Source: Firmicutes bacterium AM41-11
GTDB taxonomy: Bacteria; Bacillota_I; Bacilli_A; Erysipelotrichales; Erysipelotrichaceae
Length of the DNA: 64,000 nucleotides
Assembly: GCA_003480165.1 (NCBI GenBank)
Contig: QUIQ01000001.1
Location: 248,001 to 312,000, forward strand
Reading direction: 5' to 3'
Position numbers and translations under genes: made by a program. A model generated the notes under the pieces. The model saw nothing but the letters and a program-made list of their open reading frames with translations. It did no database searches and was not told the origin of the DNA. Positions 14,338-54,173 of the stretch are shown piece by piece (the first letter of the stretch is position 1; each line of letters begins with the position of its first letter).

Positions 14338-14928
14338 TTATATTTTGGCACAAGCCATTATGATTTTCTGGCACATATCATATCCTAACATAGAGCTGTT
14401 CAAAGACAATGTATAATTGCCTGCCATTCCCCACTTCTGTTCGGTATAAAAATTATAATTTGTCCCGCGTCTTTTATCTGTATCATTGATCATTTTTACA
14501 GCATCAGCTTCTGTAACATTGTATAACTTGCAGATGCGCTGTACTTTTTCTGGCATGTTTCCATGTATAAACACATTCAGCACATCATCTCTGTCCCTTA
14601 AGATAAAATCTGCATTTCTTCCTATTATTACACAACTTTCTTTTTCAGCGATTTCTCTAATTACTTTTCTTTGTGCTTCATACACCATATCTTCGACTGA
14701 TTTTCCTGTAATATCACGTCCTGAAAAAGCATAGGAAAACAGTCCTTTCTTTGGAGATAATTCAGTATTTTCCTGAATATACTCAGGCGATAATCCAGAC
14801 TGTTCTGCAATTTGCCCAATGATATCCTTGTCATAATATGCAACACCAAGTTTCTTTGCCACTTCTTCACCGATAAATCGACCACCGCTTCCAAATTCTC
14901 TGCTGATCGTAATGATTCTCTTTGTCAT
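14338..14928 (-). CDS. Cytidylate kinase-like family protein
   Basis: A 196-residue P-loop protein. SREFGSGGRFIGEEVAKKLG near the N-terminus is the nucleotide-binding loop of the cytidylate-kinase-like family (Pfam PF13189), and CVIIGRNADFIL and DKRRGTNYNFYT match its later blocks. The actual substrate is not established for this family, and it is distinct from the housekeeping Cmk. It lies 13 nt after the MATE gene and is probably co-transcribed with it. Confidence 0.85.
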   Translation of the reverse strand: MTKRIITISREFGSGGRFIGEEVAKKLGVAYYDKDIIGQIAEQSGLSPEYIQENTELSPKKGLFSYAFSGRDITGKSVEDMVYEAQRKVIREIAEKESCVIIGRNADFILRDRDDVLNVFIHGNMPEKVQRICKLYNVTEADAVKMINDTDKRRGTNYNFYTEQKWGMAGNYTLSLNSSMLGYDMCQKIIMACAKI

Positions 14929-14941
14929 AACCGCTTCCTCC

Positions 14942-16309
14942 TTAGCTTAAACTTTCCACTTTTTTCTTTCGGATTCTCTTTAAAAATAAATATCCAACCA
15001 GACAAGCAATAATCTCAGTAATTGGAAATGCCCACCAAATCAATGAAACACCCATCTGTCCATTTCTAACAAAAACGGAAAAAATGCCCGCCAGTGGTAA
15101 TATGACTATTAGTTGTCTGAGCAATGAAATCACAAGTGATTCCATACCACCATCCAATGCCTGATAAATCCCCTGATATGCTACATTGATTCCCGCAAAA
15201 ATAAAGCTGATGGAGATAATTCTCATGGCTCCAATAAAATATTCTCTTGACTGTCCCGCATTAAATAAAGTTGCAAAAGCCCCAGGGAAAATTTCTGTAA
15301 TTGCTACACCAACAATCATAAGTACCAACGTATAGATCAATCCGTATTTGATTCCATCTTGAATCCTCTTTTTGCTATGCATTCCGTATGCAAAAGCAAT
15401 AATCGGTGTGATTGCATCCCTAAGTCCAAAGGCGAGGAACAATACAAACTGCTGCACTTTATAGAATAATCCATATGCAGTCTGTGCCGACGGACTGAAC
15501 TTCAAAATCAGATTCATCACATATACCATAATAGACATAAGTGCCTGTGCAATAATTGCAGGGAGTCCAATCGCATAGATTTCCCTGATAATTCTACTAT
15601 CCGGTTTCATATACTTTACGCCATGCTCAAATTCTTTATTTAACTTTATATGGAATATAAACAAAAGTACTGCAGATACTATCTGTCCGATTACTGTTGC
15701 ATATGCAGCACCTTTCACTCCCATTTCGGGAACTGGTCCGATACCATAGATCATAATCGGATCAAAGATAATATTCACCACTGCACCTACAATCTGACCG
15801 AGTGTTGAATAAAGTGAACGACCTGTTGCCTGTAACAGTTTTTCAAACAGTGAAAAGAAGGTAATTCCAAAAGAAATTACACAGCATATTCTTAAGTAGC
15901 TTGTTCCCATTGAAATAACTTTCGGATCAACGGTCTGTGATGAGATATATGCTTTTACTCCCAAGATTCCAAACACTAGACACACCACATAAATAATTAC
16001 TCCAAGAAATAAACTGTTTCCTGCAACTTTTGCAGCTTTTTTAACATTGCCCTGTCCCAGTGTTCTTGCAAGAAGCGCATTTGTTCCCACACCTGTTCCG
16101 ATTCCAACTGCTACCATGAGCATCTGAACTGGAAACACCAGTGTCAGCGCATTTAGTGCCGCCTCACTTCCTGATCTCATGTTTCCAACAAAGGCACTGT
16201 CTACAATGTTGTAAACCGCCTGCAATGCCATAGATAAGATCATTGGTATTCCCATCTGAACCATAAGCTTATTTACCGGCATCTCCTTCATCTTGTTACT
16301 TTCTGCCAT
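14942..16309 (-). CDS. MATE-family multidrug efflux transporter
   Basis: A 455-residue membrane protein with about 12 spans and the two-fold MATE repeat. The first half begins [20 protein letters not shown], and the second repeat contains [16 protein letters not shown] pumps export cationic drugs or metabolites using Na+ or H+. It has its own consensus promoter and a 200-nt leader with two intrinsic terminators, so expression is probably controlled by antitermination. Base usage looks less AT-biased at third positions than in neighbouring genes. Confidence 0.93.
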
Positions 16310-16333
16310 CTTAACTTAATCCTTCCTTTCTGC

Positions 16334-16516
16334 AAAAAAAGTGTGTACTTACCTCATAAGCTGGACTTACGCTGATAAGCTACACACTTTTAACTGCGTT
16401 ATATATTTTCATCATGTGCGACAGCAAGTGCACAAAAAAACGAGCAACAAAACTGGATTTACGCTAGTTTGCTACTCGTTTTTAAGCATTATATTTTTCT
16501 ATTTGGGAAAAGTCAA
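16334..16516 (-). promoter_or_regulatory. Promoter and tandem-terminator leader of the MATE operon
   Basis: TTGACT (16511-16516) and TATAAT (16488-16493), 17 bp apart, start a leader that at once enters hairpin H1 (stem AACGAG/CTCGTT, seven T at 16434-16440). Further on it meets H2 (stem AAAGTGTGTA/TACACACTTT, seven T at 16334-16340). Inside both, the sequences AGCGTAAATCCAG (H1) and AGCGTAAGTCCAG (H2) are nearly identical although the stems differ. Two terminators with one shared internal motif suggest a ligand- or ribosome-responsive attenuator. It matches no riboswitch class I can name. Confidence 0.7.
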
Positions 16517-16529
16517 ATCCAAATTGTAA

Positions 16530-17064
16530 ATAGAAAATGGATTTGAAATTGAAGAAGAGGATGGAAGTATACGATACGGAAAGAGTAAAGAAAACCGGCC
16601 GAATCCTATTATCGGTATGGGACTGTTTATGGATAGAGACGGCATTCCTTTGACATATTCTCTATTCTCTGGAAATCAAAATGAACAGCTAAGAAGTTTA
16701 ATTCTGTTCATGACAGAGCCTATGTCATTACGCAATCCATCAAGAAACTAAAGAAAGAAGATGGCAGATAGAGGAATGTTTCCGCATTCTAAAAACAGAA
16801 TGCAAAGCCAGACCCATCTATCTTCAATTAGAAGACCGAATCGATGCACACTTCTTAACATGTTTCTGTTCTTTACTAGTCATTCGTTTATTATCCAATA
16901 AACTGGATAATAAATATACAATTGGTGAATTACTTGAAACATTAAGAACCATGGAACTGACCGATACAGACCAGGGTTCATATCTTCCAAGTTACACAAG
17001 AACAGCTCTGACCGATGATCTACACGAAACATTTGCTTCAGAACCGATTATCAGATCCTTCTAA
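16530..17064 (+). pseudogene. IS4/IS1634-like transposase remnant
   Basis: Translated by eye, one frame from 16530 gives IENGFEIEEEDGSIRYGKSK... and DRDGIPLTYSLFSGNQNEQL, then AYVITQSIKKLKKED in a second frame, then WQIEECFRILKTECKARPIY to ...EPIIRSF and a stop at 17064. These are N-central and C-terminal blocks of a DDE transposase of the IS4/IS1634 type, with internal deletion and shifted frames. It cannot be active. Confidence 0.8.
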
Positions 17065-17200: not shown

Positions 17201-17257
17201 ATACCTTAACTTGCACTTAAAAAGAGTGCCGAAGCACTCTTATCAACAAATTTCGAT
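17201..17257. repeat. Right copy of the 57-bp direct repeat
   Basis: Exactly 3440 bp from the left copy. It contains the epimerase terminator and the last codons of that gene, so this is presumably the original copy. Confidence 0.85.
17215..17241 (-). terminator. Terminator of the epimerase operon
   Basis: Perfect stem AAGAGTGC/GCACTCTT with a four-base loop; on the minus strand it is followed by TTTTTAAG. Confidence 0.8.
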
Positions 17258-18106
17258 TTGGTAAGAAGGCGTAAACTTTTCGTTTGGTGCTAAAATCTGT
17301 GTTCCTTCTCTTTGATAGAAAGAAGTGTGATTGACATCAAAATCCGCATGACCATACCAAGGTTCAATACATAAGAATTCTGAATGTTTTGGATGCGTCC
17401 AAATAGCCAAGTAAGGGAAATCCTTAAAATGCACACGTAAACGATCTTGGTCTTTATACGCCAAAGTCACATAGTTTGATTGGAAGTCTTTATAAATAAT
17501 TGTTTTATATTCATCAATATCTTCATAGTTTAAATGCCAAACATCCAATTCCGTATCTACCCATTTAGAAGGTTTAACGAAAGTTTCATCAAACAACAAT
17601 TGTTTGGCAGGTTCTTGTTTTTCAAAAGTTAAGGTATAATCCGTAAAAGCTTCCCCAGCTCTTTCAGGAACGCGGAAAGCCGGATGCAAGCCAAAACTAA
17701 ATGGCATATCTCTAGAACCCGTATTTTCAATCACATAGTTGATCTTTAAAGTTTTCTTTTCTAAACGATATTGAATTTCATAATGGAATTCAAAAGGATA
17801 TTGCGCTAAAGTTTCTGCATTTGAATCATACGTAAAAGTCAAACAATCATCCTGCATCAGACCAACACAAGTCGCATAACGAATCAAGCCATGGTTTTTC
17901 ATGGCATACGTTTTACCATCAATCGCATATTCTTTGGAATAGGTATTTCCAACCAAAGGAAAGAGCGTCGGATTCTTTCCGGACCAGCCTTGATCTCCCT
18001 GGTACATCAATTCAACATCGTTTTCTTTATCAATAAAATGTTGAATCTGCCCTCCATCTTCAATACATTCCAAACGACAAAATTCATTTTCTAGTACATA
18101 GCACAT
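17243..18106 (-). CDS. Aldose 1-epimerase-like protein (LacX type)
   Basis: A 287-residue beta-sandwich enzyme of the galactose mutarotase superfamily. The expected His residues are visible in MKNHGLIRY and FGLHPAFR, with an acidic region late in the protein. Such enzymes interconvert alpha and beta sugar anomers; the exact sugar is unknown. The start overlaps the upstream HAD gene by 16 nt, so the two form an operon. Its last codons lie in a duplicated 57-bp repeat. Confidence 0.88.
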   Translation of the reverse strand: MCYVLENEFCRLECIEDGGQIQHFIDKENDVELMYQGDQGWSGKNPTLFPLVGNTYSKEYAIDGKTYAMKNHGLIRYATCVGLMQDDCLTFTYDSNAETLAQYPFEFHYEIQYRLEKKTLKINYVIENTGSRDMPFSFGLHPAFRVPERAGEAFTDYTLTFEKQEPAKQLLFDETFVKPSKWVDTELDVWHLNYEDIDEYKTIIYKDFQSNYVTLAYKDQDRLRVHFKDFPYLAIWTHPKHSEFLCIEPWYGHADFDVNHTSFYQREGTQILAPNEKFTPSYQIEIC

Positions 18107-18876
18107 TTTTTCATCCTCCTAAGGTAGTGATAGATTCCATCTTCTTGAATCGATCCAATCACACAATCTGCACTTTCTTTGCAGGCTTTTTGGGCGTTAC
18201 CCATCGCAATTCCTAAATCTGCCATTTTCAACATAGCCACATCGTTATCTCCATCCCCGAAACATACAATTCGCTGTAAATGAAATAGCGTTTTCACGTA
18301 AGCAATCGCATCACTTTTATCACAATGTTTCGGACGGATTTCTATACAATCACTATAATAAACAACACTACAGTTGCTTAAAAACTGTGCCAGCTTTTGT
18401 TTCTGCTGTGGCTTATCAAAATAAATAAGCATATTATAAACATCTTCATTTTGATAAGGCTTATACGAAGGAATGGTCAAATAACAATGCCAACAAACTT
18501 CCCGCATTTTCTGACGCCTTTCCAAAGAACCCCAATGCACCGAATTCATAGTAGAATACTTCCAAGCCATACCTTCCCTTTGACAAAAAGCAGAAATCTC
18601 TTCTACAAAGTCTGAGGCAAAACAGCTTTCTTTTAAAACCTTTTGATGACCATCTACAATCAGAGGACCACCATCAAATATTTTTGCATCAAAGGCAAAA
18701 TTACGTAGTTTACCAGGCAAATGTTGCCATTCAGCTTGGGCTCTGGAAGTTGCAGCAATGACGACATTGCCATCCGCATGTAAGGCTTCTAAAGCCTTGA
18801 GTGTATTGGGTGAGCATTCATGGAATTTATGATCGTATAAGGTTCCATCTACATCAAAAAAATAGCCTGCTTTCAT
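18091..18876 (-). CDS. HAD-superfamily phosphatase, Cof type
   Basis: A 261-residue soluble phosphatase. Motif I FDVDGTLYD carries the nucleophile Asp, and motif IV CFGDGDNDVAMLKMADLGIAM is typical of the Cof/HAD-IIB group with a C2 cap. Such enzymes dephosphorylate sugar phosphates or cofactors. Coupling to the epimerase gene fits a sugar-phosphate role, but that is inference. Confidence 0.92.
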   Translation of the reverse strand: MKAGYFFDVDGTLYDHKFHECSPNTLKALEALHADGNVVIAATSRAQAEWQHLPGKLRNFAFDAKIFDGGPLIVDGHQKVLKESCFASDFVEEISAFCQREGMAWKYSTMNSVHWGSLERRQKMREVCWHCYLTIPSYKPYQNEDVYNMLIYFDKPQQKQKLAQFLSNCSVVYYSDCIEIRPKHCDKSDAIAYVKTLFHLQRIVCFGDGDNDVAMLKMADLGIAMGNAQKACKESADCVIGSIQEDGIYHYLRRMKKCAMY

Positions 18877-18908
18877 GCTCTAATAGTAACAAAAAAGATT
18901 AAGCAATA

Positions 18909-19763
18909 CTACTTAACCTCACAAAATTCTTTAATCTGATCCATACGTTCCATCGTTTCATCATAGCCAAGTTGAAACCAAGGATGTAATTTTTTTGGAT
19001 CAGTTGTATAACGGGTAATCCCTAAATCTTTATGGGGACGTAAAACCAAGGCTTTTCCGTCTTTTTCCAATTGATCGACAAGACCCCATTGTTGGTTATA
19101 ACGTTCATGACGTTTCTTTAAATCTTGAACAATCACATCATCTTTATAAACCAGTTTGGCCAAACGCAATTGCCAATTTGGTGCGGGTTTGCGTACATAA
19201 CCTACTTCTTTGGTTGAAATCACAATATGTTTCTGGTTGCCTTGGCGAATACTCTGTACAATACTAATCATATCCACTAAACCAGCATCCATATATTTCT
19301 GTCCTTGAAACATATAAGGATGCGTTAGAAGCAACAAGGCACAACTCGCTTTCACAAGCGTTTGTGATTCATCCAAATACTCTTTGCCATAATATTCGAC
19401 CGCATGCGTTCTCATATTATAAAGACCAAAATCCATCTTCGAAGAACTAGATTGAAACGCCTGCATATCCAATTTTTCCCGACTTTCAATAAACGCATTG
19501 GTGGATTCGATCCCATATATACTCTTTTCTTTAAAAAGAGGTTTTAAACCAACAACACCCGGTTGACAAGGTGCTTGAATTCCCGTTAATTCCAATCGAG
19601 GAATTTGTCTAGCCACATAAGAAGTCAAGATTTCACAACCAGCACTAATTCCTACGGTATACGGTATATATATTTTTTCTTCCAAGAAAGCTTTTAAAAC
19701 CCCAGCCGAATAAGCTGCTTTGGTTCCGCCGCCTTCGACAACCAATCCCATTTTCTCAAACAT
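18909..19763 (-). CDS. Patatin-like phospholipase family protein
   Basis: A 284-residue protein. The oxyanion loop EGGGTKAAY (10-18) and nucleophile elbow GISAG (S40) define the patatin fold. The second catalytic motif reads MDAGLVD where most members have DG[GA]: the dyad Asp is present but Ala follows it. Probably a serine lipid acyl hydrolase of the RssA/YjjU kind. It has its own ATG 32 bp upstream of the HAD gene. Confidence 0.88.
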   Translation of the reverse strand: MFEKMGLVVEGGGTKAAYSAGVLKAFLEEKIYIPYTVGISAGCEILTSYVARQIPRLELTGIQAPCQPGVVGLKPLFKEKSIYGIESTNAFIESREKLDMQAFQSSSSKMDFGLYNMRTHAVEYYGKEYLDESQTLVKASCALLLLTHPYMFQGQKYMDAGLVDMISIVQSIRQGNQKHIVISTKEVGYVRKPAPNWQLRLAKLVYKDDVIVQDLKKRHERYNQQWGLVDQLEKDGKALVLRPHKDLGITRYTTDPKKLHPWFQLGYDETMERMDQIKEFCEVK

Positions 19764-19879
19764 AGTAATTCCTCACAATCGATAGACATTATACATGGAA
19801 TTGAAACGATAGAAAATAGCTAAAACTTTCTTTTTACCTAGTTTTAGAAAAATTCTTTCGCTTTCTTTTCCTAAATTCC

Positions 19880-19923
19880 AAAAAGAAAAGCTGATAAGTT
19901 GAATCTAATCAACTTTTCAGCTT
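19880..19923 (-). terminator. Terminator after pepT
   Basis: A 15-bp stem AAGCTGAAAAGTTGA with one mismatch to its partner, five-base loop, then TTTTCTTTTT on the minus strand. Confidence 0.85.
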
Positions 19924-19925
19924 CG

Positions 19926-21110
19926 TTATTGCGTAACAATAGTTTTCACAACTTCTACCATCTTTTCCATCTTCGTAATAGATGCAAATTCATAAACTCC
20001 ATGATGATGGAAGGTGCCCGTTCCCAAATTCGGACAAGCCAGACCCATTTCCGTCAAGCGAGCTCCATCGGTACCACCGCGTACCGGAATCGAAACCGGC
20101 TCAATCCCTAAAGATAGTAGAGCCGCTTTCGCTTTTTCAACTGGTTTTTTATCTTGCATAAAATCAGCCATATTATAATACTGGTCTTTGATTTCAACAC
20201 TAAAACGAGGTCCATATTTATCATTTAAGGCATCACAGATCTGTTGGAGAACCAGCTTTTTCCGGGCAAATTTTGTCTTGTCATGATCTCGCAACAAGTA
20301 CACCAATTGCGCGTGTTCAACCGCACCTTGCATTGAAACCAAATGGTAGAAACCTTGTCGGTCACAAGTCGTTGCAGGTGTTTGATCATTCGGCAAACAT
20401 TTCGCAAAATCCATTGCCAGTAAAGATGCATTGACAAGTTTGCCCTTCCCTTCTCCAGGATGAATAGCCGTACCTTGAATATGCACAATAGCTTGTGCCG
20501 CATTAAAGTTTTCCCATTCTACATTATCGATACGATCCCCATCAACGGTATAGGCATAGGCACAAGGAAACTTCGTTAAATCAAATTGATCCGCTCCACG
20601 ACCAATTTCTTCATCCACCGTAAACGCTACACAGATTGGTGCATGCGATAGATTGGATGCTTTCAGCTGTTCAATAGCTTCTAAAATAATCGCAATACCA
20701 GCTTTATCATCGCCACCTAGTAAAGTTGAACCATCCGTCACAACTAAATCATCACCAATACATGCCGCAAGTTTCGGATAGGCATCTGGATGCATAGAAA
20801 TTTTGTCATTTAATTGAATCGTCGATCCACCGTATTCTTTGATTACGCGTGGATGTACATTGGCACCACTACATTCTGCTGCGGTATCCATATGTGCACA
20901 TAAACCAATCGTATCTTTTTGGGAATCTCCATCCAATTGACAATAAAGAATCCCGGTTGAATCCAAGATAACTGAATCAAAGAGTTCTCTGCATTCTTGT
21001 TCTAAAACTTTCGCAAAAGTCATTTGTTTATCCGTACTTGGAGTAGTTGTTGAATTCTCATCCGATTGGGTATCATAACTAACATATTTTAAAAAGCGTT
21101 CTAAAATCAT
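19926..21110 (-). CDS. pepT: Peptidase T
   Basis: A 394-residue di-zinc tripeptidase of the M20 family, removing N-terminal residues from tripeptides in the cytosol. The metal and catalytic blocks are LCAHMDTA, GGDDKAG and DEEIGRGAD, and the C-terminus has GTFHHHGVYEFAS. The length is typical. Its start overlaps the stop of the pyrophosphatase gene by 4 nt. Confidence 0.95.
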   Translation of the reverse strand: MILERFLKYVSYDTQSDENSTTTPSTDKQMTFAKVLEQECRELFDSVILDSTGILYCQLDGDSQKDTIGLCAHMDTAAECSGANVHPRVIKEYGGSTIQLNDKISMHPDAYPKLAACIGDDLVVTDGSTLLGGDDKAGIAIILEAIEQLKASNLSHAPICVAFTVDEEIGRGADQFDLTKFPCAYAYTVDGDRIDNVEWENFNAAQAIVHIQGTAIHPGEGKGKLVNASLLAMDFAKCLPNDQTPATTCDRQGFYHLVSMQGAVEHAQLVYLLRDHDKTKFARKKLVLQQICDALNDKYGPRFSVEIKDQYYNMADFMQDKKPVEKAKAALLSLGIEPVSIPVRGGTDGARLTEMGLACPNLGTGTFHHHGVYEFASITKMEKMVEVVKTIVTQ

Positions 21111-53886: not shown

Positions 53887-54173
53887 AAAAAAAGCTTTCG
53901 ACCTATAGGACGAAAGCGAAACTAACGTGTTACCACCTATTTTTATAAGATAATCACTTATCTTACCTCAGAAAGTACAAATATACTCTAACGCGATAAC
54001 GGGCGCATCCGTCATGACTTACCTATCAGCCACACGACTCCAAGTCCATCTTCTATATCCTTCTTCCTGTTCATTTCCACCAGCAGAACTCTCTAATAGG
54101 ATCGGGTATATATACTCTACTCTTCTTCGTCAATTTAGTTAAAATTATACGGCATCAATCAAGGAAAAGTCAA
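53887..54173 (-). promoter_or_regulatory. T-box leader of the metNIQ operon, specifier ATG (Met)
   Basis: The promoter TTGACT (54168-54173), 18 bp, TATAAT (54144-54149) starts a leader of about 250 nt. It ends with the T-box GGTGGTAACACG (53926-53937) and a terminator GCTTTCG/CGAAAGC with seven T (53887-53917). Stem I shows the AGAGAG and GAACAG features, and on its 3' side GAAGATGGACTTGGAG carries the only sensible specifier, ATG at 54047-54049. Uncharged tRNA-Met would allow read-through, which fits a methionine importer. This fills the 351-bp gap between genes. Confidence 0.88.

Follow-up and report, generated by a model that had tools for sequence, protein, structure and literature searches.

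Predicted tandem terminators before a MATE exporter gene embed a covarying RNA element, an orphan riboswitch candidate

The leader of a MATE exporter gene on the minus strand of the window (the whole 64-kb stretch of DNA that was analysed) holds two hairpins that share a conserved RNA element, and since the covarying second fold of this element is predicted to compete with the stop signal, the element is likely to be a switch that turns the exporter on. We put a probability of about 0.65 on the reading that the second fold competes with the terminator and that a factor, with a small molecule as the likeliest candidate, lets transcription reach the exporter gene when bound. On the predicted folds, the element is best read as a terminator-embedded antiterminator that would be OFF by default, and as an orphan riboswitch candidate; we infer a sensing role for the hairpins. 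The locus comprises the following features, with P1 and P2 denoting the two helices of the second fold.

16488..16516, minus strand: promoter, with -35 TTGACT (16516-16511), a 17-nt spacer and -10 TATAAT (16493-16488), 11 of 12 consensus positions
16450..16481, minus strand: element copy 1 in its predicted antiterminator fold, P1 16481-16478 with 16453-16450, P2 16472-16471 with 16464-16463
GAGUA 16477-16473 / GUAAAUCCA 16462-16454, minus strand: conserved internal loop of copy 1, from alignment A5, pair counts and covariation
16434..16479, minus strand: predicted terminator 1, class A, stem ACGAGTAGCAAACT / AGTTTTGTTGCTCGT, then seven T (16440-16434)
16358..16389, minus strand: element copy 2 in its predicted antiterminator fold, P1 16389-16386 with 16361-16358 (including G16387-C16360 and U16386-G16361), P2 16380-16378 with 16373-16371
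GUGUA 16385-16381 / GUAAGUCCA 16370-16362, minus strand: internal loop of copy 2, from alignment A5, pair counts and covariation
16334..16389, minus strand: predicted terminator 2, class A, with seven T at 16340-16334
16329-16320, minus strand: Shine-Dalgarno-like AAAGGAAGGA before the MATE gene
14942..16309, minus strand: MATE family efflux transporter, the presumed regulated gene (TIGR00797, 189 bits, cut-off 147.4)
14338..14928, minus strand: cytidylate-kinase-like protein (PF13189), encoded 13 nt past the MATE gene and predicted to form an operon with it as its second gene

The initial annotation had described a consensus promoter followed almost at once by a hairpin, and a single motif inside both hairpins, each ending in a tail of seven T, and this description holds. 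With the consensus promoter at 16516-16488, hairpin 1 begins almost at the predicted start site, and the hairpins carrying the two copies span 16481-16434 and 16389-16334. The motif AGCGTAARTCCAG occurs without mismatch at just two sites in the 64 kb, 16453-16465 and 16361-16373 of the minus strand; a search that tolerates up to three mismatches gives 25 matches where 19.5 are expected, and the 23 additional ones have two or three mismatches. The common part is larger than had been claimed, because GNGTNGC, upstream of the motif, is also common to both hairpins. The full hairpins have energies of -16.1 kcal/mol (hairpin 1) and -22.8 kcal/mol (hairpin 2) versus -2.1 and -4.1 kcal/mol for the respective elements alone, the third P2 pair of copy 1 being an A-A mismatch, and compared with folded shuffles the hairpins reach z values of -4.6 and -6.2. 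A promoter scan found two promoter-like sites in the leader region versus a mean of 3.4 in shuffles, and a terminator scan that considered only loops of 3-8 called neither hairpin.

The true core was defined from 40 aligned hairpins, both copies mixed and picked on GTAANTCC, as GNGTNGC, a short spacer and GCGTAANTCC; in these first 40 hairpins GNGUNGC and the GC before GUAA were invariant though they were no part of the picking criterion. The consensus of the element is Y-GWGUNGC-(4-11 nt)-GCGUAANUCC-R, numbered here as Y6 G7 W8 G9 U10 N11 G12 C13 N14...N19 G20 C21 G22 U23 A24 A25 N26 U27 C28 C29 R30 R31 N32, and the second fold consists of P1, an asymmetric internal loop GWGUN / GUAANUCCR, and P2. 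Covariation was counted in elements with the core pattern and TTTT within 60 nt (two strict matches were dropped for want of TTTT), giving 164 distinct sequences, each counted once, to which 148 of the 183 matching loci contributed (some of these are a single place retrieved twice); the strict core is present in 92 of 124 model matches. Set against shuffles, which ignore relatedness among the elements, pair 5-32 is formed in 163 of the 164 (shuffle mean 89.4; A-U 77, G-C 42, U-A 31, C-G 2, the rest wobbles), pair 6-31 in all 164 (150.1) and pair 3-34 in 103 (71.6), while pair 4-33, formed in 154, is almost invariant (152.2). The P2 pair 14-19 is Watson-Crick in 91 of 164 versus 49.8 in shuffles. 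Among the variable position pairs examined, mutual information is highest for pair 5-32, at 1.24 bits, the next value being 0.42. P2 is short, its third pair being mismatched in 57 of the 164 copies, window copy 1 included, and the covariation analysis gives no support for a fourth P2 pair (15-18). Over the whole structure in alignment A5 (114 elements), where the invariance of the core follows from selection and positions 3-6, 14-19 and 31-34 are free of it, 88.9% of cells are paired versus 76.0% when shuffled and at most 52.4% when slid. In the same alignment, cells with a double change number 112 versus 42.8 shuffled and at most 33 slid; five pairs show any double change at all, which is not unusual, since 71 of 500 shuffles reach this figure. 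The paired, covarying flanks thus indicate that the element forms P1, the internal loop and P2.

Minimum-energy folds of 169 distinct element-plus-tail sequences take two geometries, with the downstream arm pairing with the 5' strand of the element in 129 (class A, to which the window terminators belong) and with its 3' strand in the other 40 (class B; L178 is an example, with GCGTAAATCC paired to GGGTTTGCGC). None of the 169 folds keeps two or more P1 pairs, and their mean energy is -22.1 kcal/mol versus -8.1 with shuffled arms. Since the class A or B criterion is also satisfied by shuffled arms (563 of 845), the terminators stand out by their energy and not by the class count. When P1 and P2 are held fixed in the full RNA the mean energy is only -2.7 kcal/mol, and this cost, together with the weak stability of the element, implies that stabilisation must come from non-canonical contacts or from a bound partner. 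Pairs 5-32, 6-31 and 14-19 exceed shuffles within each terminator class taken separately; in class B, pair 5-32 is formed in 38 of 39 elements, 37 of them Watson-Crick (shuffle 22.4), and no covariation is seen at pair 3-34. A class B terminator leaves the 5' strand of the element free and yet 5-32 covaries, the pattern expected of an antiterminator that would be read before the terminator arm is made. The modelled folds show the second fold and the terminator to be mutually exclusive, and the earlier characterization of the hairpins as conserved inside and variable outside was correct for a reason that covariation has now revealed, namely that a covarying second hairpin excludes the terminator.

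A model consistent with these folds can be outlined. The RNA is taken to be made and both hairpins to be able to terminate; as long as the factor is absent the terminator, by far the more stable fold, would form, and transcription would stop some 45-50 nt from its start or else at hairpin 2. The factor, presumably a small molecule, would bind to the internal loop (GWGUN / GUAANUCCR) while the RNA is emerging from the polymerase, stabilise P1 and P2, and withhold the strand that the terminator needs, giving an ON outcome. With two elements in series both would have to switch, which should sharpen the response. The factor would probably be a substrate of the exporter, or a metabolite that signals the need for export. 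If the element is a riboswitch, ligand-dependent protection of GUAANUCC is expected in the 32-nt element alone.

Homologous leaders, whose absence would have spoken against the reading in the initial annotation, proved to exist in many genomes, of gut bacteria and of others related to them. A scan with the MATE protein, one genome per species, gave 79 loci, and among the 39 leaders L002-L040, 33 carry two motif copies at zero or one mismatch; L026, L036 and L037 have one such copy, L029 and L038 have one copy with two mismatches, and L028 has none. Records with tandem leaders are named Roseburia, Blautia, Anaerobutyricum, Coprococcus, Eubacterium and others, most tandem leaders are preceded by the same promoter, and the distance from copy to copy is 64-225 nt (in L027 it is 324 nt, with the copies before different genes). 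A covariance model of the hairpin matched 97 of 397 genomes of the Lachnospiraceae, the family of Roseburia inulinivorans, at E <= 0.001, where about 0.4 of the 397 would be expected by E-value, the short calibrations making the E-values of this model and the next rough. A model of the inner element matched 36 of 391 genomes from the class of Roseburia inulinivorans; in the class to which a Solobacterium genome belongs it matched 16 of 247. Counted over 101 loci (92 counted loci plus L110-L118 with two each), there is one element in 74, two in 26 and three in one. The tandem pattern had no matches in viral contigs. Three candidates were set aside: L068 is a chance motif match that lacks the conserved 5' strand and folds otherwise, and the model matches at L209 and L220 are likely to be false, the core being absent.

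In the searches with RNA models, the first downstream protein carries a MatE domain (PF01554) in 70 of the 97 leaders of one set and in 33 of the 46 of another; for comparison, eight whole genomes of 2.4-4.0 Mb hold 24-53 MatE domain matches each, and a MATE protein has as a rule two such domains. The first set (A3) holds the 97 first downstream ORFs of 102 leaders, five leaders being without an ORF of 60 aa within 450 nt, and 96 of the 97 came from the family search of 397 genomes, the other being L138; the second (A6) holds 46 ORFs, with L221, L225 and L226 omitted as repeats, L241 without an ORF, L252 omitted, and L272 and L274 without a core match. Close orthologs of the window MATE aside, the downstream proteins are divergent (8-62% identity to the first of the set). 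Besides MATE proteins, CarD-like, DUF2798-like, 79-aa and cytidylate-kinase-like proteins recur. The element lies directly before CarD-like genes in L264, L265, L266 and L269, from genomes of 0.8-1.3 Mb, and also in L151 and L275; these six proteins are homologous to each other, with the CarD Pfam match below cut-off for L269 and absent for L265. The DUF2798-like membrane proteins (L158, L166, L237, L238) are linked by BLAST, with a Pfam match in L238 only. A cytidylate-kinase-like gene stands behind the MATE ortholog in 26 of the 40 loci L001-L040 (two partial; a 34% match in L040 was left uncounted), and in L179:727-2802 and L268:680-2608, whose genomes were drawn from two classes, MATE and cytidylate-kinase-like domains share one reading frame, the two genes of the predicted window operon being joined there. 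The 79-aa protein (MKRVKAACICQTLHF...) is encoded between two elements and before the MATE gene in L128 (shortened), L140, L164, L174 and L185, and the copy scanned matched no Pfam family. Single or double cases include MFS, PadR, SpoU and SodC proteins, an FMN oxidoreductase and two histidine kinases, among others. Two side observations concern these neighbourhoods. A short protein follows the CarD-like gene in L266 and L269 and by eye resembles the protein of L263, which has a weak match to the RNA polymerase alpha C-terminal domain; and in a single genome (G055) elements of class B type precede an FMN oxidoreductase and a Cu/Zn superoxide dismutase (L192 and L202) in place of a MATE gene.

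A conserved, covarying RNA structure before several unrelated genes is a general trait of riboswitches, and the element displays it. The odds lean, somewhat better than evenly, towards a widespread new riboswitch class of Clostridia and Solobacterium-type Bacillota, in which the whole aptamer, of about 30 nt, would start no more than a few nucleotides into the transcript and could sit in either of two terminator geometries, one or the other of its strands acting as a terminator arm. It would sense one compound or stress metabolite and thereby turn on CarD-like RNA polymerase factors, MATE exporters, and a cytidylate-kinase-like enzyme that in some cases is fused to the exporter.

Membership of a known Rfam family, the other outcome that the initial annotation had allowed for, was not borne out: no family reached threshold at the element, in scans at the gathering threshold over the window, permissively on the leader (E <= 10), and at 12 other loci (E <= 0.1). 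T-box RF00230 had no match at the leader. Two models gave sub-threshold matches, which we attribute to a stem and T-run: one for a plastid psbA 3'UTR matched hairpin 1 with 25.2 bits (E 0.008; gathering score 55.8), and Atu_C9, an sRNA model, matched the elements of L193 and L222 with 23.1 and 21.8 bits (E 0.03 and 0.071; gathering score 40). Full-text literature searches returned no description of the element in the portions of articles that they cover, and an unnamed listing in supplements is possible; the main text of PMC8632094 and PMC11109978, as far as available, has no MATE motif, and the passages of PMC11611296 hold no report of the element.

The closest architectural parallel is the HMP-PP (thiS) riboswitch, described in the passages drawn on here as a compact aptamer within an intrinsic terminator with an unusually conserved terminator loop, upstream of thiamin genes, with two mutually exclusive folds, a possible pseudoknot, and a ligand that suppresses termination (PMC6478431). 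On the evidence of covariation and predicted folds, the present element resembles it, as far as those passages go, in being embedded in a terminator and in having exclusive folds. It differs in being modelled as a single two-helix hairpin that stands before MATE and CarD-like genes, occurs in tandem with itself and has two terminator geometries. The Rfam scans of the window leader and the 12 loci gave no thiS match, the presence of thiS and guanidine-IV models in Rfam 15 being unconfirmed, and the Pfam tallies of the 97 and 46 downstream proteins contain no thiamin-related genes. Guanidine-IV and Gd4v are, from the passages available, terminator-overlapping ON switches, each of two hairpins joined by a pseudoknot, with MATE among the targets of both, and Gd4v is common in gut samples (PMC7736828, PMC9788692). 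The element, as compared with those passages, likewise has MATE among its downstream genes; unlike these switches it is one hairpin, mostly in single copy (74 of 101 loci), with first copies so near the predicted start that another hairpin would not fit ahead of them. No SugE-type family appears in the same tallies.

RAT hairpins, bound by antiterminator proteins of the BglG/LicT type, are about 30 nt long, have an asymmetric internal loop and overlap a terminator. The element agrees with this layout in all three respects and, with its terminator near the start of the transcript, it invites the explanation that the same antiterminator hairpin is bound by a dedicated RNA-binding protein responding to drugs or stress. 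The element is intrinsically weak (-2.1 and -4.1 kcal/mol for the two window copies), and a protein could stabilise it just as a small molecule could; the CarD-like RNA polymerase factors that adjoin some elements could be the partner. The conserved letters appear to differ from those of RAT, however, there are no PTS or sugar genes in the downstream Pfam tallies of 97 and 46 proteins, and no regulator gene was found constantly linked to the element among the neighbours looked at. The 79-aa protein is rejected as the partner, for it does not track the element: it occurs in 27 of the 397 family genomes against 97 with the element, and although 21 of the 27 also have the element, 76 of the 97 element genomes are without the protein. 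The search for CarD-like proteins covered 12 genomes, nine of them chosen for a CarD-like or neighbouring gene by the element; G011 gave a Mfd-sized match only, and because CarD-like proteins encoded next to the element in G895 and G916 escaped the same search, a partner role for CarD-like factors is only weakly disfavoured. A protein-bound antiterminator is on balance unlikely, though it is the strongest rival of a small-molecule ligand.

It is very unlikely that the hairpins are ordinary terminators in tandem, there to shield the gene or keep it silent without any regulation, their common core reflecting descent from a duplicated terminator. Both do resemble good intrinsic terminators, but terminators require no conserved core, yet GNGUNGC and the GC before GUAA do not vary in the first 40 hairpins; moreover, the 3' arm and geometry of the terminator vary while P1, absent from the terminator fold, covaries. 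A DNA operator for a repressor beside the promoter would account for the near-fixed placement of first copies: 77 of 102 first copies and 3 of 31 later ones (L110-L118 being entered with their second copy only) have the end of a promoter-like -10 no more than 25 nt ahead of the core, and the distance is 9-13 nt at 71 of these 80 sites. Second copies, however, lie away from the promoter at variable distances, a T-run follows all but two strict matches, and the inner spacing of 4 to 11 nt and the covarying flanks disfavour both an operator and DNA looping, leaving this explanation highly improbable. For an RNA switch the same placement has another consequence. The usual distance from the -10 to the transcription start is 6-7 nt, so G7 would fall at about +4 to +8 and P1 would start with the first nucleotides of the RNA; first copies near the predicted start therefore have no space ahead of them for another aptamer or a leader ORF.

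The 11-codon ORF that had been noticed between the hairpins exists and ends in the 5' arm of hairpin 2, as attenuation coupled to its translation would need, but it is not conserved and is no part of the switch: an ATG in frame with the corresponding TAG is found in only 5 of 29 homologous tandem leaders. Most leaders, moreover, carry just one element, so close to the predicted start that an ORF would have no space ahead of it, and such attenuation is scarcely credible. A codon reading of the core, and mimicry of rRNA or tRNA, were dropped by eye.

The substrates of MATE exporters are mostly unknown, and an RNA sensor that marks one subset of these proteins would provide a handle on what that subset exports. 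The set of 164 elements represents natural variants ready for probing, the link to CarD-like polymerase factors and the MATE-kinase fusion lead to testable predictions, and two terminator geometries around one core would be a clean natural case of a binding site coupled to termination.

Some further observations concern the surroundings of the locus. The stretch that separates the leader from the adjacent gene (16530-17061, plus strand) contains remnants of a transposase-like gene, split over two reading frames, the second piece having a weak DDE_Tnp_1 match (E 0.0029, below cut-off) and the first none. The window MATE, in the block 14338-16500, is 93% identical to that of a Lachnospiraceae MAG (L001), and the neighbouring peptidase T (region 17243-21110) has as its best named relatives those of Dubosiella, a member of the Erysipelotrichaceae, and Firmicutes M10-2, at 55%. 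From sequence similarity, another family may be the source of the MATE block, and the transposase-like remnants are possibly the scar of the event that brought it in. Elsewhere in the window, a T-box leader scores above gathering at 53903-54136 on the minus strand.
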